This document shows, piece after piece, positions 1 to 8,732 of a stretch of 8,732 nt of DNA. The first letter of the stretch is position 1. Each line of letters opens with the position of its first letter. Source of the stretch: Neisseriales bacterium. GTDB taxonomy: Bacteria; Pseudomonadota; Gammaproteobacteria; Burkholderiales; UBA11063. The stretch is from contig SSGY01000166.1 of the NCBI GenBank assembly GCA_008017145.1, positions 1-8,732 of the forward strand, in the 5' to 3' direction. Below the pieces are notes generated by a model, which was not told the origin of the DNA, did not search any database, and worked only from the letters and a program-made list of their open reading frames with translations. Made by a program: the position numbers and the translations under genes.

Positions 1-423
1 GATGCGCCGGGTGATCATGTTTTAATTAAATCAGGAGATGATGCGACATGTAGCTGGGATAGCGCTGCTGGTTGGGAAACAGATAGTGGTGAAGCGAGCT
101 ATTTTCTTGGTAAATGGAAAAATTTGATTTTCATTGATCGGGGGACAGGGACTGATGGGCGCGATGTACTGATTTTTGATTTGGATAGCAAACGTCAGGT
201 ATTTACTGCTAGCTATTCTAATCCAATGGAAATTAGTCGCAAAAAATTGACTTATTGGCAGGGTGCTAATATAATTGCAACTAAAGATAATTGTGATGAA
301 TTTGAAGAGGCAGAAAAAAATGCTTTGACACCACAGATTCAAAAATTAATGAGTGTTGATTTGACTGCAGCCACTCCAGTTGCGCTTAGTGGTAAAAAAA
401 CGCGTTGTCAATTAACTCAATAA
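1..423 (+). CDS. 3' end of an unrecognised protein, possibly exported
   Basis: Frame 1 is open from the first base of the window to the TAA at 421-423, giving 140 C-terminal residues; the true start lies upstream. A TTG at 124 could be read as a start, but the same frame continues upstream without a stop and with similar composition, so I treat the gene as 5'-truncated. The visible part is rich in Asp, Gly, Ser and Thr. It has three well-separated cysteines (near residues 17, 99 and 137) and aromatic/Gly-rich strands such as YFLGKWKNLIFIDRGTG, suggesting a beta-rich domain. No membrane segment is visible in this part. Cysteines plus polar beta structure would suit a periplasmic or secreted protein, but that is inference. 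I do not recognise the family. It is followed by a large palindrome that probably ends its transcript. Confidence 0.6.
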   Translation, partial: DAPGDHVLIKSGDDATCSWDSAAGWETDSGEASYFLGKWKNLIFIDRGTGTDGRDVLIFDLDSKRQVFTASYSNPMEISRKKLTYWQGANIIATKDNCDEFEEAEKNALTPQIQKLMSVDLTAATPVALSGKKTRCQLTQ

Positions 424-429
424 TGGATC

Positions 430-550
430 ACTCATCATCTTTGAATCTTGGACTTTGTCGTATTTCAAAAAAGACTCGTCATGTACTTCTGAGTACACGT
501 CCTCGTCTTTTTCATCAATACTTCGCGTCCAAGAATCAAATATTTTGAGT
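430..550. repeat. 121-bp imperfect palindrome (intergenic repeat candidate)
   Basis: The outer arms 430-453 and 527-550 are inverted copies matching at 20 of 24 positions, including the block TCTTGGAC/GTCCAAGA. Inside them further complementary pieces line up in order: GTATT at 460-464 with AATAC at 517-521, AAAAAGAC at 468-475 with GTCTTTTT at 505-512, and TGTACT at 482-487 with AGTACA at 492-497 around a TCTG loop. The whole stretch can therefore fold into one long interrupted hairpin on either strand. It fills most of the gap between the upstream gene and nadV and has no good reading frame. It may be a dispersed palindromic repeat or small MITE-like element, a bidirectional terminator, or both. 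Copy number elsewhere in the genome cannot be seen from here. Confidence 0.7.
467..512. terminator. possible bidirectional terminator at the core of the palindrome
   Basis: The inner hairpin centred on the TCTG loop at 488-491 is preceded by six A (467-472) and followed by five T (508-512). On either strand the stem is thus followed by a U-run, the layout of a factor-independent terminator. The stem is interrupted by mismatches between 476-481 and 498-504. The position fits: 44 bp after the stop of the upstream gene and about 100 bp before nadV. Confidence 0.4.
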
Positions 551-613
551 ATCTAGCTAGTGGGTAATGTTCAATTAAAGATTAATTATAACTAAATTTT
601 AAAAAGTGAAAAT

Positions 614-2059
614 ATGAGTAATAGCTTGCGCCGCAATATAATTCTTGATATTGATTCGTATAAAAATGATCATGGCAAAATGTTACCTCAAGACACCGAG
701 TATATTTTTTCAACTATTGTTCCGCGACGTGGCAATCGTTATACTGATGTTATTAAAGCAATGGGGCATCAATATGCAGTTAAGAAATACATCACTGAAC
801 CGGTTGAAGCATGGATGTTGGATGAAGCAGAAATTGAATTGCGCGAGCAAGGTTTTAGTTTTAACCGCGAGCGTTGGCAGCATATTCTAGATAAGCATAA
901 TGGTTATTTACCGTTGGAAATTCGTGCTGTGCCGGAAGGTATGCTAGTGCCAGTTGGTGTGGCAACCGTGACAATTGTTAATACCGATCCTAAATGCGGC
1001 TGGTTAAGTTCGTATATTGAGACTATGTTTCAGCGGGTATGCTGGAAGATGACGACGGTTGCGTCAATTGCCTTGAATTTGTATCGCTATCTTGATGATA
1101 TGATGATTAAACATAGTGGAGAGGCGGGTAAGGTTAATTTTCATTTGCATAATTTTGGCTCACGTGGCGCTGATAGTTATGAAGCGGATATTTTGGCAGG
1201 AATGGCGCACTTGTCTGCTGGGTTTAATGGTACTGATTGTGCTCAGGCAAATCGTAATATCAAGCATTTTTATAATACAACCAAAGCTTATGGCATGAGT
1301 GTCAGCGCTTCTGAACATAGTGTAATGTGTACTTGGTCTGATTCAAATACTCGTGATGACTTACCCGCAGTTAAGATGATGATTGATTTATTAGAGTACA
1401 AAATAAAAAACAAAGAGGGTTTACCAATTGTTTCGATCGTTGGCGATACTTATGATATTTATCGGCTGACTCGTGATTATATCGGTGGTATCTATCGTGA
1501 CAAAATTATCGAATTAGGCGCTTTGGGCGGTAAAGTAGTAGTAAGACCCGATTCTGGTGATCCGCTTACCATGTGTATGGAAATAATCAAAATTTTGATG
1601 GATAAATTCGGTTATAGTGTTAATAAATTTGGTTATAAAGTCTTACCGCCTTATATTGGTGTGATTCAAGGTGATGGAATCAATAATGATAGTATCCGCC
1701 ACATCGTTGCGCGTTTGGATAAAGCGCGGATTAGTTTGGAAAATATTATTTTTGGGATGGGGAGTGGTTTGACGCATGATGCTGGGCGCGATGAATTTTC
1801 CTTCTCGATGAAAGCAACTGCCCGTTTTGATGGCAAAATATGGCATGATTTGCAAAAGCGTCCGATAACTGATCTGGGAAAACAGTCATTAAAGGGACAT
1901 GTTAGCACTTATATTAGTCGTGATAAACAAGATATTTATACTGAGCGAATTGAGGATGAACATTTACTGGCGAGTGATTTGATGCAGACGATTTATCGTG
2001 ATGGTAAATGTTATCAAGAATATACGTTTGACGAAATATTGAGCCATAATCAGCGTTGA
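614..2059 (+). CDS. nadV: Nicotinamide phosphoribosyltransferase (NadV/NAMPT family)
   Basis: The 481-residue product is full length for the family and colinear with eukaryotic NAMPT. It makes NMN from nicotinamide and PRPP, the first step of the two-step nicotinamide salvage route to NAD, in the cytoplasm. Recognisable landmarks: DSYK at 14-17 (Tyr16 matches the nicotinamide-stacking Tyr18 of human NAMPT), FGSRG at 181-185 (Phe181 and Arg184 match Phe193 and Arg196), GTD at 206-208 (Asp208 matches Asp219), ASEHS at 232-236 (His235 matches the phosphorylated catalytic His247), VVRPDSGDPL at 309-318 (Arg311, Asp313), and IQGDG at 351-355. The active site therefore looks intact. The ATG at 614 gives the expected N-terminus, although its Shine-Dalgarno (AAGTGA-like) is weak. 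No NMN adenylyltransferase or NrtR regulator gene lies next to it, so NMN is presumably adenylylated by an enzyme encoded elsewhere. Confidence 0.95.
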   Translation: MSNSLRRNIILDIDSYKNDHGKMLPQDTEYIFSTIVPRRGNRYTDVIKAMGHQYAVKKYITEPVEAWMLDEAEIELREQGFSFNRERWQHILDKHNGYLPLEIRAVPEGMLVPVGVATVTIVNTDPKCGWLSSYIETMFQRVCWKMTTVASIALNLYRYLDDMMIKHSGEAGKVNFHLHNFGSRGADSYEADILAGMAHLSAGFNGTDCAQANRNIKHFYNTTKAYGMSVSASEHSVMCTWSDSNTRDDLPAVKMMIDLLEYKIKNKEGLPIVSIVGDTYDIYRLTRDYIGGIYRDKIIELGALGGKVVVRPDSGDPLTMCMEIIKILMDKFGYSVNKFGYKVLPPYIGVIQGDGINNDSIRHIVARLDKARISLENIIFGMGSGLTHDAGRDEFSFSMKATARFDGKIWHDLQKRPITDLGKQSLKGHVSTYISRDKQDIYTERIEDEHLLASDLMQTIYRDGKCYQEYTFDEILSHNQR

Positions 2060-2062
2060 TAT

Positions 2063-2092
2063 TTTACGGTGCTTCTTTGACTGATGTACAAT
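2063..2092 (+). promoter_or_regulatory. candidate sigma70 promoter for ssb
   Basis: TTTACG (2063-2068) and TACAAT (2087-2092) are separated by 18 bp and lie 38 bp upstream of the ssb start codon, directly after the nadV stop. The -10 is good and the -35 moderate. It would let ssb be expressed independently of nadV. Confidence 0.45.
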
Positions 2093-2130
2093 AGAGGACT
2101 GAGTTTTAATTTTTGAATAAGGGTATTGTT

Positions 2131-2577
2131 ATGAAAAAAATATTTGTGACAGGTAATGTTGGTCGTGATCCAGAGTCACGTTACGCGCCAAATGGAGAGT
2201 CATTTGTAACTTTCTCGTTGGCAGTTACGACAGGACCTAAAGATAATCAAAAAACTGACTGGTTGGAAATCAGCTGTAATGGACGCACTGCAGAGACGGT
2301 ACAAAAATGGGTAAAAAAAGGTAGCAAGTTATTAATTGAGGGTACGCCAAGTGCTAATGCTTATATTAATAAAGAAGGCAAAGCAGTTGCCTCATTGCGC
2401 GTTAGTGCTTCAAATATTGAATTTATCGGTAGTCGTGAGCGCTCTGAAGAAGCTGGTGCACCTGATGGTGGCTACAGCTATGATCAAGCGCCGGGGAATG
2501 AACCAGCTCCAGCTATGCAGCAATCTGGATTTAATGCACCTGGTCCGTCACTACAAGCTGATGATATTCCATTTTAA
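2131..2577 (+). CDS. ssb: Single-stranded DNA-binding protein (SSB)
   Basis: The 148-residue protein has a bacterial SSB layout. An N-terminal OB fold (about 1-103) begins KIFVTGNVGRDPE and contains the TDWLEI strand (Trp44), the helix with Trp60, and the GSKLLIEG strand. A flexible Gly/Pro/Gln-rich linker (about 104-142) leads to the acidic tip DDIPF, the docking site for replication and repair partners. It should bind ssDNA as a tetramer. I chose the ATG at 2131 because AAGGG at 2119-2123 is well spaced from it and because it starts right at the OB fold; a TTG at 2113 would add six residues overlapping that Shine-Dalgarno. The protein is shorter than E. coli SSB (178 aa) and lacks the usual proteobacterial ASRGVNKVIL-like start. 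It may therefore be a secondary or horizontally acquired paralogue, though this is inference. Confidence 0.94.
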   Translation: MKKIFVTGNVGRDPESRYAPNGESFVTFSLAVTTGPKDNQKTDWLEISCNGRTAETVQKWVKKGSKLLIEGTPSANAYINKEGKAVASLRVSASNIEFIGSRERSEEAGAPDGGYSYDQAPGNEPAPAMQQSGFNAPGPSLQADDIPF

Positions 2578-2598
2578 GCAGTTGACCTTCAATATATA

Positions 2599-2640
2599 GT
2601 AGGGGAGTTTGTTTAATCACATTCTCCTACGTGGTTTGTT
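2599..2640 (+). terminator. possible terminator downstream of ssb
   Basis: GTAGGGGAGT (2599-2608) can pair with ATTCTCCTAC (2621-2630) as a 10-bp stem with two G-U pairs around a 12-nt loop. It starts 21 bp after the ssb stop and is followed by a T-rich but interrupted tract (2635-2642). The stem is reasonable but the U-tract is poor. Confidence 0.4.
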
Positions 2641-2654
2641 TTGGATGTTTTAGC

Positions 2655-3066
2655 TTGATTAAATTGTATTTTCTACCATATGCATGTTGTACTAGTGTTC
2701 ATATCATTTTAAAAGAAATACAAGTTGAGTTTGAGTTAATTTACGTTGGTAAAAATGCAGATGAGCAAACAAAATCTAAATTTGCTCTCTTTAGGTAATG
2801 CTGCTACTCAACAAAATGTCAGAACTTGGGCGCATACTAGCATTAATAAATATTTTATGATTTTAAATAACCACTTAGCTGATAAGTCATATCTCGCTGC
2901 AGAACGATTTTCAATTGCGGATGCGTATTTATTTGTCGTTTATCAATGGACAAAATACACGAACGTTTCTACTCAAAACTATCCTAATCTAAGTAATTAT
3001 ATTGAACGTATTGCCCGGCGAAATTCAATAAAATCAGCATTACAACATGAAGCACAGTATTTGTAA
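2655..3066 (+). pseudogene. Glutathione S-transferase remnant with internal deletion and frame change
   Basis: Two pieces of one glutathione transferase lie in different frames. From the TTG at 2655, one frame encodes about 47 residues beginning MIKLYFLPYACC and continuing SVHIILKEIQVEFEL, then stops at 2796-2798. This is the thioredoxin-like start of a beta-class GST (compare E. coli GstA MKLFYKPGACSLASHI), and Cys11 sits where the catalytic Cys10 is expected. The second frame, from about 2794 to the TAA at 3066, encodes about 90 residues of the all-helical C-terminal domain, including the family motif RFSIADAYLFVV. A full GST has about 200 residues, so roughly 70 residues (end of the N-domain plus first C-domain helices) are missing at the junction, and the frame shifts there. 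A TTG at 2746 opens the second frame but gives only a domain fragment, so I do not call a functional gene. No ATG starts the first piece either. Confidence 0.85.
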
Positions 3067-3095
3067 TATTTTATCGTATATTTAGGGTGTTTGAT

Positions 3096-3434
3096 ATGAA
3101 AGAATTAATTGAATGGGAGGATTTTGCAAAGATTGATATTCGTAGTGGCACAATTCTTGATGCCAAAATTAATGAAAAAGCGCGTGTTCCCGCATATATT
3201 TTAACCATTGATTTTGGTGATTTGGGCATGAAAAGCAGTTCGGCGCAGCTTACGCAGAATTATTTACCAAGTGATCTGATTGGCAAAAAAATTGCTGCCG
3301 TGGTTAATTTTCCAATAAAGAAAATAGCAGGGGTAAAATCAGAGGTTTTAGTTCTGGCAACTGTTTGTGATACTAAGGGAACGCTATTATTAAGCGTAGA
3401 TCCATTAGCTCTTAACGGTAGTTGTGTCAAATAA
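3096..3434 (+). CDS. csaA: CsaA-type tRNA-binding OB-fold protein
   Basis: The 112-residue protein is a stand-alone tRNA-binding domain of the EMAPII/Trbp111 type and matches the CsaA subfamily in length and in sequence throughout. Landmarks are WEDFAKIDIRSGTI (7-20), the KSSSAQLT segment (46-53), IAAVVNFPIKKIAGVKSEVL (66-85) and the closing NG motif (107-108). CsaA proteins form dimers; the Bacillus protein has been described as having chaperone and secretion-related activity, and the fold binds tRNA. The physiological role in proteobacteria is unclear. The ATG at 3096 is chosen because AGGG at 3084-3087 lies 8 bp upstream and the protein then begins with the conserved region; a GTG at 3087 would overlap that Shine-Dalgarno. 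It follows the GST remnant by 29 bp and no convincing own promoter is seen. Confidence 0.92.
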   Translation: MKELIEWEDFAKIDIRSGTILDAKINEKARVPAYILTIDFGDLGMKSSSAQLTQNYLPSDLIGKKIAAVVNFPIKKIAGVKSEVLVLATVCDTKGTLLLSVDPLALNGSCVK

Positions 3435-3651
3435 AAATATATTCTAATTATTGATAATTTGCTAAAAGTCAAATATTTTGGATGTTTATTTATATGTTTC
3501 TGTTATTTCATCTAATGATTGAAGTTTACAAGGTAACTATTATAAATATTTTTGAGTTTATTTAGATGTTGTCAATTGTGGATTTTAGTGTAATTTATTG
3601 TTTTATATCAATTGGATATATTTTATGCGTGGCGATGTTTGAATTAGAGTC
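3435..3651. other. AT-rich intergenic stretch with no recognisable gene
   Basis: About 217 bp of very AT-rich sequence between csaA and the moxR promoter. The only ordered pieces are a small AT-only palindrome (AATTAT TG ATAATT, within 3449-3466) and scattered CAATTG motifs. A 27-codon hydrophobic ORF at 3482 has no ribosome binding site worth the name. I see no clear terminator for csaA here. Confidence 0.5.
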
Positions 3652-3680
3652 TTGATTTTTAAAAAATGATATGTTACAAT
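3652..3680 (+). promoter_or_regulatory. strong sigma70-type promoter for the moxR-bat operon
   Basis: TTGATT (3652-3657) and TACAAT (3675-3680) are separated by exactly 17 bp, each one mismatch from consensus, with an A/T-rich spacer. Transcription would start near 3687 and give a leader of roughly 105 nt before moxR. This is the best promoter in the window and the only one visible upstream of the six-gene cluster. Confidence 0.7.
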
Positions 3681-3701
3681 TACCAACGTTTGAGAAAAGA
3701 G

Positions 3702-3736
3702 CGTCTGAGCAGGATGCATATTTTGCCTCTCAGACG
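3702..3736 (+). promoter_or_regulatory. leader hairpin upstream of moxR
   Basis: CGTCTGAG (3702-3709) and CTCAGACG (3729-3736) are perfect inverted copies. The pairing extends inward with AGG (3711-3713) to CCT (3726-3728) past a single bulged C, giving an 11-bp stem and a 12-nt loop. It begins about 15 nt after the predicted transcript start. No T-run follows, so it is not a simple terminator. It could stabilise the mRNA 5' end or be part of a regulatory leader. The CCTC in its 3' arm could alternatively pair with GAGG of the moxR Shine-Dalgarno (3785-3788), though only over four bases. Confidence 0.55.
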
Positions 3737-3750
3737 AAGATTATCTTAAT

Positions 3751-3777
3751 AAAAGGAGTAACCATAACTGGTTTTTT
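3751..3777 (+). promoter_or_regulatory. orphan Shine-Dalgarno and small T-tailed hairpin in the moxR leader
   Basis: AAAAGGAGT (3751-3759) is a near-ideal ribosome binding site but has no ATG, GTG or TTG at a usable distance. The triplet at the right place is ATA (3764), which would begin a 10-codon frame ending in TGA at 3794-3796, overlapping the moxR ATG. The same stretch has AACCA (3760-3764) pairing with TGGTT (3769-3773) around a 4-nt loop, followed by six T (3772-3777), which resembles a weak terminator or attenuator. moxR itself has a second Shine-Dalgarno, GGAGG at 3784-3788. The elements are visible; a regulatory role is inference. Confidence 0.4.
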
Positions 3778-3792
3778 AACGCTGGAGGATTT

Positions 3793-4749
3793 ATGACCGA
3801 ACACGAACAGTTTCAACAATTACTTAATTATCTAAATAGCCGGGTGGTTGGGCAATCCGAACTAACCAAGCGCCTACTCATCGCATTATTATCATCAGGG
3901 CATCTCTTAGTTGAGGGTGCACCGGGACTTGCTAAAACTACCGCGATTAAAACTTTATCTTCTTGTATTGATTGCTCTTATCACCGGGTTCAATTTACAC
4001 CTGATTTATTGCCAGCAGATTTGACTGGTACTGATGTTTACATTCCTGAGCAACATACATTCCAATTTCAATCTGGTCCATTATTTCATAATTTCTTGTT
4101 AGCCGATGAAATTAACCGTGCGCCAGCTAAAGTGCAGTCAGCGCTACTTGAAGCGATGGGTGAGAAACAAATTACAGTTGGTAAACAAACTTATCCTTTG
4201 CCGCAATTATTCTTGGTTATGGCAACGCAAAATCCGATTGAACAAGAGGGAACTTATCCATTACCTGAAGCGCAACTAGATCGTTTTATGATGCACGTTA
4301 AAATTGCTTATCCAGATGCGGCTGCAGAAGCGCAAATTTTGGCACTAAATCGCGTAAACAATAATAGCGCAGATGTTAACCGTCCGCGAATTACCCAAGA
4401 GGCAATTTTTACAGCTCAACAACAACTGGCCAATATTCATTTAAGCCATGCTTTAGAAGAATATATCATTCAACTGATTATGGCAACTCGCTATCCACAA
4501 AAATACCAAGCAGAACTAGCTAAATGGATTAGTTTTGGTGCTAGCCCACGCGGAACGATTGCGCTAGAGCGCACTGCACGTGCTCATGCATGGCTGGAAG
4601 GTCGTGATTATGTTACTCCGCACGATATTCATGTGATGATTCATGAAGTTTTACGCCATCGAATTTTACTTACTTTTGAAGCCGAGGTTGAAGGTATCAA
4701 TAGCGATCAAATTATTGATAAAATCCTCAATGTAGTTCCGATTCCTTAG
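3793..4749 (+). CDS. moxR: MoxR-family AAA+ ATPase
   Basis: The 318-residue product is full length for a MoxR AAA+ protein. Visible motifs: Walker A GAPGLAKT (42-49), Walker B LLADEIN (102-108), sensor 1 ATQNP (144-148), arginine finger region EAQLDRF (159-165, Arg164), and sensor 2 ASPRG (250-254), followed by the C-terminal helical lid. All catalytic residues appear intact, so it should form an ATP-hydrolysing hexameric ring in the cytoplasm. MoxR ATPases act as chaperones together with vWA-domain partners, often in maturing metal enzymes or in envelope stress responses; the partners are encoded directly downstream. The ATG at 3793 has GGAGG just 4 bp upstream. It is the first gene of the operon, behind a strong promoter and a structured leader. 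The symbol names the family, not proven methanol-oxidation function. Confidence 0.95.
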   Translation: MTEHEQFQQLLNYLNSRVVGQSELTKRLLIALLSSGHLLVEGAPGLAKTTAIKTLSSCIDCSYHRVQFTPDLLPADLTGTDVYIPEQHTFQFQSGPLFHNFLLADEINRAPAKVQSALLEAMGEKQITVGKQTYPLPQLFLVMATQNPIEQEGTYPLPEAQLDRFMMHVKIAYPDAAAEAQILALNRVNNNSADVNRPRITQEAIFTAQQQLANIHLSHALEEYIIQLIMATRYPQKYQAELAKWISFGASPRGTIALERTARAHAWLEGRDYVTPHDIHVMIHEVLRHRILLTFEAEVEGINSDQIIDKILNVVPIP

Positions 4750-4808
4750 GAATATGCTCATAAATACTTTGAGTAAACCGTTTATCAATATCTAGTGAAT
4801 GAAAAATT

Positions 4809-5705
4809 ATGACTAAAGGCATTAATCCGGAAATTAATGAGCTTTTGGCGATGCGCTATTGCGCAGCCGAATTACAGCTCTTTAATCCTAATAAAGTTAA
4901 TTCGGTGACTAATGGTATCAATGCTTCACATGCGCGCGGACGTGGGATGGATTTTGATGAGGTTCGCCGTTATCAAGCTGGTGATGACATCCGTCTGATT
5001 CATTGGCCGCTGACTGCCAGATCGGGAAAGACTTATACCAAGGTTTATCATGAAGAACGTGAGCGCTCGGTTTACCTGTTGATTGATCAATCTGCATCGA
5101 TGCGCTTTGCCACCAAAGTTGCTTTTAAAAGCGTTATTGCAGCACGAATTGCGGCTCTTTTAGGCTGGGCAGCATTGACACAACATCAACAAGTTGGTGG
5201 AGTTGTTTTTGATGAGCTGGGAGCTGAGTATATAAAACCACGGCGCAGTCGTCAGTCTTTATTAGATGTGTTTAATCTTTTGACTTATCCAAGAAAAAAT
5301 CGCCAGCAAGGCGGTTTGGCAAATTCGCTACAATTTATTTTGCGCCAGATTCAATCAGGTAGCACAGTGATTGTCTTGAGTGATTTTTGTAGTTTAACTA
5401 GCGAGGCGGAACAGTATCTACGGCTGATTGCTCATAAATGTGAATTGATTAACTTGCTAATTTATGATCCTTTGGAAGCTAGTTTACCTGATCGAGGGAT
5501 ATTTAGCTTTACGGATAATGGTAGTGCACGCTTGGAGATTGGTGATACTTTGCAAACTAAAGAGCGTTATGCAGAACCTTTTGCCAAACGAGTAGCAGAT
5601 TTACGCAATTTATCGCGGCAAAATCGGATGCAATTTATGACACTGGCAACTAATGATGATTTGGCAGCAGTATTAAAAGCTGGAGTAAACAGAAGTGGAA
5701 AATAA
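4809..5705 (+). CDS. DUF58 family protein (vWA-like, MoxR partner)
   Basis: The 298-residue protein carries the DUF58 signature: GMDFDEVRRYQAGDDIR (46-62), then HWPLTARSGKTYTKVYHEER (65-84), leading into the vWA-like strand VYLLIDQSASM (88-98). The DxSxS metal-site motif is present (Asp93, Ser95, Ser97), with a later IVLSDF strand (188-193) carrying Asp192. No membrane segment or signal peptide is evident, so it is probably cytoplasmic or peripheral. In the signature, the position after Ile is His65 where many relatives have Asp (IDW), a minor variant. It starts 59 bp after moxR with only a weak Shine-Dalgarno, the only real gap in the operon, which may lower its translation relative to moxR. 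DUF58 genes habitually follow moxR; the protein is thought to work with the ATPase, but its molecular job is not established. Confidence 0.92.
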   Translation: MTKGINPEINELLAMRYCAAELQLFNPNKVNSVTNGINASHARGRGMDFDEVRRYQAGDDIRLIHWPLTARSGKTYTKVYHEERERSVYLLIDQSASMRFATKVAFKSVIAARIAALLGWAALTQHQQVGGVVFDELGAEYIKPRRSRQSLLDVFNLLTYPRKNRQQGGLANSLQFILRQIQSGSTVIVLSDFCSLTSEAEQYLRLIAHKCELINLLIYDPLEASLPDRGIFSFTDNGSARLEIGDTLQTKERYAEPFAKRVADLRNLSRQNRMQFMTLATNDDLAAVLKAGVNRSGK

Positions 5706-6171
5706 TAGTTTAGCAGATTTAAAAGATATTCATTTACCAGCACCAGTTTCAATTTTTCCTCTTGCTCCGGGATGGTATATTGTGCTGGCAGTCATGTTTG
5801 TGATTATAATTTTACTTATTCTATGGCAATTACGCCGTGCAAGTAAACAGTATAAATTAAAACAAGTTTTGATTTTGCTGGCGCAGATTGAAGCTAAAGC
5901 ACAAGCTTCGGAGCCTGAGCAAAGAGAAGAAGTTCTCCCTGAGATTTCGATTTTACTAAAAAGGGTTGCCCGCGAGAAATTTAGCGAATTGCATCCCCAA
6001 AATCTATTTGGTGAAAAATGGTTGCAATTTTTGGATCGTAGTGGTAAAACAACTGAATTTACTAGTGGTACTGGGCGGGTTTTACTTGATGTTTATAAAC
6101 GACAATCTTTGGAAAATCCACAAGAACTATTGGGTGTAGTTAAAAATTGGTTAAGGACGGTGATGTTATGA
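5695..6171 (+). CDS. DUF4381 single-pass membrane protein
   Basis: The 158-residue product matches DUF4381: the N-terminal motif DIHLPAPVSIFPLAPGWY (11-28), one transmembrane helix (about 27-45), a basic stop-transfer sequence (RRASKQYK), and a cytoplasmic helical region with the conserved GEKWLQFLD piece (106-114). The topology predicts a short periplasmic N-terminus and a cytoplasmic C-terminal domain of about 110 residues. I chose the GTG at 5695, which overlaps the DUF58 stop by 11 bp. GGAG at 5682-5685 is suitably spaced, and the conserved motif begins only 10 residues in, leaving no room for a later start. Its stop TGA overlaps the batA ATG (ATGA). The family is found almost only between DUF58 and the vWA genes of such clusters, suggesting a structural or coupling role in the complex, but no activity is known. 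Confidence 0.88.
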   Translation: MENNSLADLKDIHLPAPVSIFPLAPGWYIVLAVMFVIIILLILWQLRRASKQYKLKQVLILLAQIEAKAQASEPEQREEVLPEISILLKRVAREKFSELHPQNLFGEKWLQFLDRSGKTTEFTSGTGRVLLDVYKRQSLENPQELLGVVKNWLRTVML

Positions 6172-7160
6172 TTCAAGTTGCTTACCCATGGGTTTTTTTG
6201 GCAATATTTTTGCCTTTTATTGTGCGCTATCTGTTTCCTGCCGTTAAAAATGAGCAGTCTTCGGCGTTAAAAGTTCCTTTTTTTAGCCAGCTGCAACAAG
6301 CTTTTGCTCATGGCGATAGCTCTGGCAAGCCTAAAGCACTTTCTTCTTTAAAATATCTTGCCTTGCTGATTTGGATTTTAATGGTGATTTCAGGTGCTGG
6401 GATACAGTGGCTGGGTAAACCATTAACGCTTCCGCAAAGTGGACGTGATTTATTGATGGCAATTGATTTATCGGGTAGTATGCAAACCCCCGATATGCAA
6501 ACCAGTAGCGGTACTGAAACGCGGATTGATGTTGTCAAACGGGTTGCCAATCAGTTTATCAGCGGGCGTACAGGAGATCGCTTGGGCTTGGTTTTATTTG
6601 GGTCGCGTCCATATCTACAAACACCATTAACATTTGATCGTAAGACGGTTGGGCAAATGTTAAATGATGCAACTTTGGGAATAGCAGGACCGCAAACGGC
6701 AATCGGTGATGCGATTGGTTTATCAGTTAAACAATTTCTTAATTATCCCGGTGATAGTAAAGCATTGGTATTACTCACCGACGGTGGCAATAATGCTGGT
6801 GTAATGCAACCTTTGGCTGCAGCTAAGCTTGCCGCACAAGAGCATATCAAAATTTATACGATTGGACTTGGTGCCAGTCAAATGGCAATACCTGGCATTT
6901 TTGGTACGCAGATTGTTAATCCGTCTAGCGATTTGGACATTGATAGCCTTAAACAAATTGCTCAAATTACTGGTGGTGAGTTTTTTCGTGCTGAGGATGG
7001 TGCTGCATTATCCGATATTTATGCACGAATTAATCAACTTGAACCAGTTAAATCGGATGCAATTACCATTCGTCCCGTGACGCCGCTTTATCCGTGGACT
7101 CTTGGGGTGGCTCTGGGACTAAGTTTTCTGTTAATGATTATTAGAATATGGAGAAGGTAA
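6168..7160 (+). CDS. batA: BatA-type membrane-anchored von Willebrand A protein
   Basis: The 330-residue protein has an N-terminal hydrophobic anchor (about 5-23) followed by the typical ALKVPFF element (33-39), a second membrane helix (62-82), a vWA domain (about 94-290), and a C-terminal helix (309-327) ending in RIWRR. The metal-ion-dependent adhesion site looks complete: DLSGSM (100-105), Thr177, and LLTDGGNN (202-209, Asp205). The vWA domain would face the periplasm between the second and third helices. The ATG at 6168 overlaps the upstream TGA, with AAGGA at 6153-6157 as Shine-Dalgarno; a TTG at 6147 would add seven poorly conserved residues. Bat proteins were named for Bacteroides aerotolerance, and related clusters are linked to stress resistance. 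BatA and BatB are expected to form a membrane complex regulated by the MoxR ATPase. Confidence 0.92.
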   Translation: MIQVAYPWVFLAIFLPFIVRYLFPAVKNEQSSALKVPFFSQLQQAFAHGDSSGKPKALSSLKYLALLIWILMVISGAGIQWLGKPLTLPQSGRDLLMAIDLSGSMQTPDMQTSSGTETRIDVVKRVANQFISGRTGDRLGLVLFGSRPYLQTPLTFDRKTVGQMLNDATLGIAGPQTAIGDAIGLSVKQFLNYPGDSKALVLLTDGGNNAGVMQPLAAAKLAAQEHIKIYTIGLGASQMAIPGIFGTQIVNPSSDLDIDSLKQIAQITGGEFFRAEDGAALSDIYARINQLEPVKSDAITIRPVTPLYPWTLGVALGLSFLLMIIRIWRR

Positions 7161-7161
7161 A

Positions 7162-8169
7162 ATGTTAGGAACGTTTCATTTTATACGTCCATGGTGGTGG
7201 CTGGCATTAATTCCAGCACTCTTGATTGCTATTTTGTGGCATAAAAAATCTCAAGCGAGTAATAATGTTTGGAAAGAGCATTGTGATCCGCATTTGCTTG
7301 AGCATATTTTAGTAAGTTCTCCTTCAGCTCGTTCGACATGGATGATAGCGCTACTTGGGGCTGCTTGGTTTTTAACTGTGTTTGCGTTAAGCGGACCTAG
7401 CTGGTCACGTTATGATGCACCAGTTTATCAGAAAAATATTGCTCGGGTCATTGTACTGGATGTTTCGCAATCAATGAACGCGACGGATATTACGCCTTCG
7501 CGGATGCAAAGAGCTAAATATAAAGTTCTTGATTTGCTGCATGCGATAAAAGAAGGGCAAACGGGGATGGTGGTTTTCTCAAGTAGCGCTTTTGTGGTAT
7601 CACCACTAACTGCGGATAGCAATACTATTGCATCAATGGTGCCTGTGCTTGACTCAAATATTGTTCCAGTACAGGGTTCGGATATTGCTGCAGGTCTTAC
7701 CAAAGCTGGTGAGTTATTTAAACAATCTGGCTCAACACGTGGTGAAATTATCTTGATTACCGATAGTTCACCATCTGCCAGTGCATTGACTGAGGCAAGT
7801 AATCTAGCCAAGCAAGGATTTATGACTTCTGTTTTGGCGATTGGAACTAAAGAAGGAACGCCTGAGAGGGGTAATGATGGTAATTTTGCAACTGATGCTA
7901 ATGGTAATGTGAGTTTGACGCATCTTGATGTTAGCGGTTTAGAAAATCTGGCAAAAAATGGTAGCGGTGAATATGTGTCATTCAAGGGCGATAATAGCGA
8001 TGTAGATAGTTTATTAAAAGTGGCAACTTTAAATGATCTTGATGCTAAAGCTTCAGCCGAGTCACAAACCGAAAGTTTATGGCAAGATCGCGGTGATTAT
8101 TTAATTTGGGGAGCATTGATTTTGTTTGCATTATTAGCGCGTAGAGGATGGTTGGAGAAATTATGTTGA
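7162..8169 (+). CDS. batB: BatB-type membrane-anchored von Willebrand A protein
   Basis: The 335-residue protein repeats the BatA layout: a first membrane helix (about 11-27, opening with the RPWWWLALIPALL motif), a second helix (60-78), a vWA domain (about 93-290), and a last helix (313-326) ending in RRGWLEKLC. The metal site has DVSQSM (100-105), Ser173 in GSD, and ITDSS (199-203, Asp201). Many BatB relatives read TDGED at the last site, so the acidic residue after Asp-Gly is replaced by Ser here; the direct ligands remain. The start ATG has GGAGAAGG 4 bp upstream and lies 1 bp after batA. In many proteobacteria this protein is fused to a TPR region. Here the TPR part is a separate downstream gene overlapping by 7 bp in another frame. 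Confidence 0.92.
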   Translation: MLGTFHFIRPWWWLALIPALLIAILWHKKSQASNNVWKEHCDPHLLEHILVSSPSARSTWMIALLGAAWFLTVFALSGPSWSRYDAPVYQKNIARVIVLDVSQSMNATDITPSRMQRAKYKVLDLLHAIKEGQTGMVVFSSSAFVVSPLTADSNTIASMVPVLDSNIVPVQGSDIAAGLTKAGELFKQSGSTRGEIILITDSSPSASALTEASNLAKQGFMTSVLAIGTKEGTPERGNDGNFATDANGNVSLTHLDVSGLENLAKNGSGEYVSFKGDNSDVDSLLKVATLNDLDAKASAESQTESLWQDRGDYLIWGALILFALLARRGWLEKLC

Positions 8170-8732
8170 AGCCAAAATTAATACCCTGTCGTACGATGCT
8201 GCGCGGAACTTGTATCGTGATTGGCTTGATGCTATCTAATACTGCTTTTGCTTTTAGCTTTCAGGATTTATGGTTTAATCAGAATCAACAAGCGGCACGA
8301 TTATTAGATCAACAAAAAAATAGCGAGGCAGCGGCTAAATTTAGCGATAATCATTGGAAAGGTGTTGCTTACTATCGTGATAAAAAATATGATCAGGCCT
8401 TGGAGATGTTTAAGCAAGATAAGACTGCCAATGGTTGGTACAATCAGGGTAATACCTTAGCTCAAATGCAGAAATATCAGGAAGCTATTGATGCTTATAC
8501 CAAAGCACTTGAATTACAAAAGAATTTTCCGGATGCCGAGCATAATCGAGAGCTAGTAAAAAAATTAAAGCAACAGCAAGAACAACAAAATAAACAAGAT
8601 CAGAAAGATCAGAAAGATCAGAAAGATCAGAAAGATCAGAAAGATCAGAAAGATCAGAAAGATCAGAAAGATCAGAAAGATCAGAAAGATCAGAAAGATC
8701 AGAAAGATCAGAAAGATCAGAAAGATCAGAAA
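8163..8732 (+). CDS. batC: BatC-type exported TPR protein, 3' end outside the window
   Basis: The frame is open from the ATG at 8163 to the window edge (190 codons). It overlaps batB by 7 bp, and GGAG at 8154-8157 serves as Shine-Dalgarno. A signal peptide is evident: basic start, hydrophobic core CIVIGLMLSNTAFA, likely cleavage after AFA at residue 30. Next comes the BatC-like opening FQDLWFNQNQQAARLL (33-48), a WKGVAYYRDKKYDQAL helix pair (65-80), and a canonical TPR (about 92-125, WYNQGNTLAQMQKYQEAIDAY). A Lys/Gln-rich helix (130-146) then runs into 14 identical Gln-Lys-Asp triplets (147-188) plus one more Gln-Lys. The TPR would sit in the periplasm and could bind the BatA/BatB vWA domains. 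The repeat may form a charged linker or long helix. A C-terminal anchor or vWA/TPR extension could follow but is not visible. Confidence 0.85.
   Translation, partial: MLKPKLIPCRTMLRGTCIVIGLMLSNTAFAFSFQDLWFNQNQQAARLLDQQKNSEAAAKFSDNHWKGVAYYRDKKYDQALEMFKQDKTANGWYNQGNTLAQMQKYQEAIDAYTKALELQKNFPDAEHNRELVKKLKQQQEQQNKQDQKDQKDQKDQKDQKDQKDQKDQKDQKDQKDQKDQKDQKDQKDQK
8601..8732 (+). repeat. perfect 9-bp tandem repeat inside batC, at least 14 copies
   Basis: The unit CAGAAAGAT is repeated 14 times without a single base change from 8601 to 8726, followed by the first six bases of a 15th copy at the window end. The preceding nine bases (8592-8600, AAACAAGAT) look like a diverged copy. The unit is three codons in the batC frame (Gln-Lys-Asp), so gain or loss of copies keeps the frame. 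Identity at silent positions shows recent expansion or ongoing slippage. Each junction creates a GATC, giving 15 such sites at exact 9-bp intervals from 8598 to 8727. The array continues beyond the window, so its true length is unknown. Confidence 0.97.

Follow-up and report, generated by a model that had tools for sequence, protein, structure and literature searches.

The BatC gene at the 3' end of the window (the whole stretch of DNA analysed here, 8,732 nucleotides of a contig from a Neisseriales bacterium) is cut off by the window end within a perfect in-frame tandem array, and the copy number of this array differs between near-identical BatC orthologues, which need not belong to one species. 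On balance, and with some reserve, we favor reading the array as an in-frame variable-number tandem repeat in a BatC tether, in which the composition would be selected and the length tolerated within wide limits.

Scanning of the window with TRF revealed one array, on the forward strand at 8596–8732 (137 bp, period 9, 15.2 copies, 100% matches, no indels), with a 9-bp consensus unit that can be written CAGAAAGAT / GATCAGAAA. A pattern count recovered 14 exact occurrences of CAGAAAGAT, each of them on the forward strand within 8601–8726, against a mean of 0.11 and a largest value of 1 in 200 dinucleotide shuffles. The array is a tandem repeat whose unit length is a multiple of three bases, lying inside an open reading frame: it shares the frame of the TPR ORF that opens at 8163, is separated by 67 bases from the Pfam TPR_1 match (8427–8528, residues 89–122), and reads as EQQNKQ followed by 15 Asp-Gln-Lys (DQK) triplets. 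As the 3' limit of the window falls within it, the array comprises at least 15 copies. These counts bear out the proposal of an earlier note that at least 14 base-perfect copies follow the TPR domain in frame, and they move the start given there (8592) four bases downstream. The opposite strand holds an 81-codon open frame at 8485–8730, more than half of which is the array read in reverse. Each DNA unit also carries a GATC, and Dam sites were considered as the point of the array; this idea was dropped because the unit of a related array (NKD, in genome G014) has no GATC, whereas the arrays have their protein frame in common. Further searches gave no match between window positions 1–8600 and plasmids (megablast), no BatB relative in viral contigs (three stretches matched a pattern and none was confirmed), and no Rfam match for an RNA element at the gathering threshold.

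The TPR gene (8163–8732, forward strand, 3' part absent) is identified as batC by its operon position and homology. Pfam matches on the forward strand gave the order moxR–DUF58–DUF4381–batA–batB–batC, composed of a MoxR-type AAA ATPase (3793–4749; AAA_3, AAA_lid_2, and bpMoxR), a DUF58 protein (4809–5705), a DUF4381 protein (5701–6171), and two VWA proteins, BatA (6165–7160; VWA) and BatB (7162–8169; VWA_2), whose best NCBIfam matches are the Leptospira BatA and BatB models, both below cut-off. The TPR gene lies directly 3' of the two VWA genes, its ATG overlapping the batB stop (8167–8169), and this order upholds the BatC identity that the earlier note had assigned to it. Among the named BatC family models, none was matched at cut-off, the sole match being NF047507 (Leptospira), which the homologue P0002 reached with 28.3 bits against 175; since this is a Leptospira-specific exception model, the gene was named by position and homology. 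A MamA model gave 29.6 bits, its cut-off being 200. Residues 1–30 (8163–8252, forward strand) form a probable signal peptide, as judged from the letters without a predictor, and BatC would be exported to the periplasm. Farther upstream, the window also contains a NAMPT-type nicotinamide phosphoribosyltransferase gene (614–2059; NAMPT_N and NAPRTase), preceding ssb and the bat operon, and an open frame (2600–3066) between ssb and a tRNA-binding-domain gene, which we take to resemble a glutathione S-transferase that has kept its C-terminal part and lacks its first half. Between the aligned flanks, the related locus L002 has ~126 bp and the window ~525 bp.

The variation in copy number was assessed in five BatC sequences (the window, P0001, P0002, and the metagenome bins L001 and L002) over the 115 residues leading up to the array. 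In the ten resulting pairs, the sequences agree at 109–115 of 115 residues, with the window and P0002 identical throughout, and the DQK counts are at least 15 in the window, 3 in P0001, 2 in P0002, at least 8 in L001, and 10 in L002. A second pair exhibits the same trend: the TPR parts of G009 and P0003 show no difference over 103 residues, and the two carry at least 8 and 3 units, respectively, the G009 unit being the synonymous variant GATCAAAAA. The earlier assumption that the array changes protein length in frame, and the conserved position with variable length that the note proposed to look for among BatC orthologues, are both supported among relatives. DNA alignment with the window gave 89.5% identity for L001 (5.2 kb) and 86.8% for L002 (5.1 kb). 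The genome collections compared hold one genome per species, and five signal-peptide positions differ between the window and P0002, so that these two need not share one species.

The ends of the contigs bear on how these counts are to be read. Contigs of three relatives (L001, which is contig C113 of G002; G009 C249; and G014 C284) each terminate in a perfect array of the 9-bp kind that measures exactly 77 bp, the other contig end in G009 (C42) retains 86 bp, one unit more, and G004 C115 ends after 23 bp of array. The window ends after 137 bp, a run that matches no assembler setting that could be named. De Bruijn assembly at k = 77, a standard SPAdes k value, leaves 77-bp ends where an array exceeds k; the word "spades" appears in the title of L001 only. 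If the 77-bp ends arose in this manner, copy numbers read at a contig end are minimum values, and long arrays are probably under-represented among complete proteins. The suggestion of an assembly limit at such an array is supported by the three relatives. Contigs end in the batC linker in 4 of 15 matched family genomes (G002, where the C-terminal part of BatC found no match, G004, G009, and G014) against an expected 0.51 (P ~0.001), a statistic that serves as a rough guide, as contig numbers were guessed as twice the highest noted index with a 300-bp target, the family was reached partly through its array, and G004 was counted at 23 bp of array. In short-read genomes of this group, the 3' part of batC can go missing where such an array occurs. 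The fact that the window and the contigs of three relatives stop within the array would also fit an assembler that had multiplied the copies, an explanation that we consider extremely unlikely: L002 was assembled through its array of 10 copies, the exactness of the 77-bp ends implies that the arrays exceed k in length and were not invented, and arrays of other units occupy the equivalent place in G014 and G021.

The sequence beyond the array, which the window lacks, was traced in relatives, where a further low-complexity linker leads to a conserved C-terminal segment, IPDDPGGLLRNKFLRDYQ. In P0002 and P0001, respectively, 2 and 3 DQK units are followed by a low-complexity stretch and then by ALSQIPDDPGGLLRNKFLRDYQ and a short tail. 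A broader alignment search found 2389 proteins, of which 120 were listed and 112 parsed, 8 having been dropped for lack of an anchor or motif match. The linker was found in all 112 parsed proteins, with a length of 59–191 residues (median 121) and a composition of 28% Q, 13% K, 11% E, and 9% each of N, S, and D; 8–27 residues follow the C-terminal motif. From these alignments, BatC would consist of a TPR domain that stays fixed, a low-complexity linker whose length varies, and the conserved C-terminal segment IPDDPGGLLRNKFLRDYQ.

Low-complexity DNA is prone to slippage, and a linker of this type could breed repeats with neither composition nor length under selection, as the minority state of the arrays (see below) and the purity of the window repeat, indicative of a young array, would allow. 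We regard this neutral account as rather unlikely, given that the linker is present in all the parsed proteins and that the composition is held though the units differ: the arrays at the equivalent place in BatC (NKD, QDQNK, QQQDK, NQDKQ, and QQDSK) are all similar in composition. Furthermore, across 24 consecutive units (120 codons) of the G021 array, 34 synonymous differences from the consensus stand against 3 non-synonymous ones, these last confined to two units, with the partial last unit adding a fourth. This excess, which also speaks against neutrality, would point to selection on the amino acids; as each unit is a copy of the others, it is suggestive only.

A change of frame was observed in L002 (~11520–11812; G001 C49) within an A-rich stretch that follows the array, so that the array and the C-terminal segment have no frame in common. 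An on-off switch, by which this stretch would shift the frame and deprive part of the cells of the C-terminal segment, is the least probable of the explanations that we weighed. The change comes from a single metagenome assembly, in which an assembly error is as likely as a real variant, the 9-bp unit cannot itself shift the frame, and the array and C-terminal segment are in frame in P0001, P0002, and P0003; eight family genes were chosen for an in-frame motif and are for this reason not countable against the switch.

In the family, 15 of 23 genomes were matched, and a long linker array was present in five of these 15: G001, G002, and G009 with DQK, G014 with NKD (where only the C-terminal part of BatC could be located), and G021, in which a 15-bp QDQNK unit recurs ~26 times at 86% matches. 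Seven others were assembled through a linker without a long perfect array; of the remainder, G004 breaks off after 23 bp of DQK array, G013 does not reach the linker, and G015 was extracted incompletely. In the three family genomes that have the DQK pattern, all 26 matches sit at batC places. Among the 112 parsed proteins, perfect arrays (three or more perfect amino-acid copies spanning 12 residues or more) were detected in three, namely P0152 (QQQDK), P0225, listed under the name Legionella oakridgensis (NQDKQ), and P0147 (QQDSK). Together, the seven genomes read through without a long array and the three proteins bearing one indicate that arrays are a minority state. Because the units differ, several independent origins are likely; their number is not fixed by a tree built on 28 chosen rows, in which both support limits are reached by 5 of the 23 inner branches. 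An order-level search matched 160 of 250 genomes, mostly through short TPR stretches with weak E-values. In a 399,750-bp sample drawn from three family genomes, in which the batC regions were included by choice and not at random, TRF gave 21 hits with the G001 batC array as the top one; the runner-up (L084 8747–8828, G011 C7; 82 bp, 12-bp unit, 6.8 copies) is in frame and encodes a repeated Pro-Gln-Ala-Thr inside an unrelated open frame. Five further proteins (P0062, P0067, P0080, P0113, and P0119) had no TPR match and share with the query only repeats rich in Lys-Asp-Gln/His/Pro, and these matches look composition-driven.

This recurrence of several distinct units at one place, along with the very different copy numbers of near-identical proteins and the precedent of TolA, would also be expected of adaptive tuning, in which the locus is a contingency locus and the tether length sets the working of BatC in the Bat complex, as TolA repeats do for TolA. 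We hold this to be possible and on the whole unlikely, since seven family genomes do without a long array and drift in a tolerant linker accounts for the same facts. A broader form of the idea, to which we give the same limited credence, would see a recurrent contingency locus in which lineages built their own arrays, the length tuned the reach of the TPR domain and C-terminal segment to Bat partners, populations varied their envelope stress response by repeat number, and contig breaks hid the variation.

Structure prediction was carried out on P0002 and on the 190 residues encoded in the window. For P0002 (64 sequences), AlphaFold2 produced a confident TPR domain with a last helix (128–157) that enters the repeat, followed by coil over most of 161–207 (pLDDT ~43–54) and by C-terminal helices (208–221 and 230–247) in blocks of pLDDT 59–71. 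For the window (30 sequences), the last helix spans 123–163, the 15 units corresponding to residues 146–190, so that the helix extends about six units into the array before the pLDDT falls to ~40. The extension of the last TPR helix into the repeat in both models (to residue 163 in the window and 157 in P0002) might suggest a stiff spacer, in which the array forms a single long helix and acts as a ruler. This is very unlikely in view of the pLDDT of ~40 further along and of the proline found in other BatC linkers (P0001–P0003). No confident continuous helix through the repeat, whether a single alpha helix or a coiled-coil rod, appears in the AlphaFold2 model, and a stiff rod through the whole array is not supported by a prediction that is helical only up to residue 163 of 190; the helix-prone rod that the earlier note had named beside a linker is likewise not supported over the full array. 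A PDB sequence search returned no Bat protein among the 60 of 114 hits listed, which comprise TPR proteins including designed TPRs, O-GlcNAc transferase, and PEX5.

In the tether reading that we favor, the linker would be flexible, acting as a soft connection from the TPR domain to a C-terminal docking segment, and both of its ends may bind partners in the MoxR–VWA Bat complex. Slippage or recombination, as in tolA, would add or remove copies as complete codon triplets and so shift the tether length without frameshift, and selection would act on the tether composition with a wide range of lengths tolerated. The minority state of the arrays and the change of frame in L002 weigh against this reading. 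The role of the TPR protein in the Bat system is unsettled, and a constant composition under changing length and unit suggests that the working parts are the TPR domain and the C-terminal segment, for whose cooperation copy number offers a simple handle.

With respect to the Bat system, the accessible part of the literature describes TPR parts encoded alongside VWA proteins and proposes that the two kinds of domain form a complex (PMC3557215); Leptospira biflexa has batB fused to batC, whereas the window has them as separate genes. Neither a repeat nor a linker downstream of the TPR is mentioned in the available portion of that source. Likewise, no tandem repeat or variable spacer in BatC was found in the open-licence literature, covered as titles and the beginnings of abstracts of the best-ranked papers and as passages of PMC3557215, PMC7159879, PMC11834572, PMC9879509, and PMC8824477. 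Repeats of a related kind are described, in the excerpts available, for Borg ORFs, in which unit lengths are divisible by three, the repeats are mostly disordered, and those in homologous proteins are often built of the same amino acids (PMC9879509). The Borg repeats affect many genes per element and belong to archaeal extrachromosomal elements, whereas the BatC array concerns one gene of a bacterial operon.

The closest counterpart is the domain II repeat of Escherichia coli TolA, for which the parts of the report consulted give a copy number of 8–16 among 234 isolates, an influence of copy number on stress tolerance, and RecA-dependent contraction (PMC3477136). The idea that a variable spacer in a Bat protein was undescribed holds for BatC, within the literature covered, but in-frame variable linker repeats as a kind are already described for TolA. 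Both are in-frame, lysine-rich repeats in the linker region of an envelope protein, lie beside conserved domains, and have a unit that is a multiple of three bases. Copy number varies between strains in TolA and between near-identical orthologues, which need not be strains of one species, in BatC. The two differ in the unit, which in TolA measures 15 or 18 bp, is imperfect and rich in Lys and Ala, and is alpha-helical, whereas that of BatC is 9 bp, perfect, and Asp-Gln-Lys. In addition, the effects of TolA copy number were shown (PMC3477136), whereas the BatC array is a feature seen in the sequence. The effect of TolA copy number on stress tolerance makes a similar effect of BatC length worth asking about.
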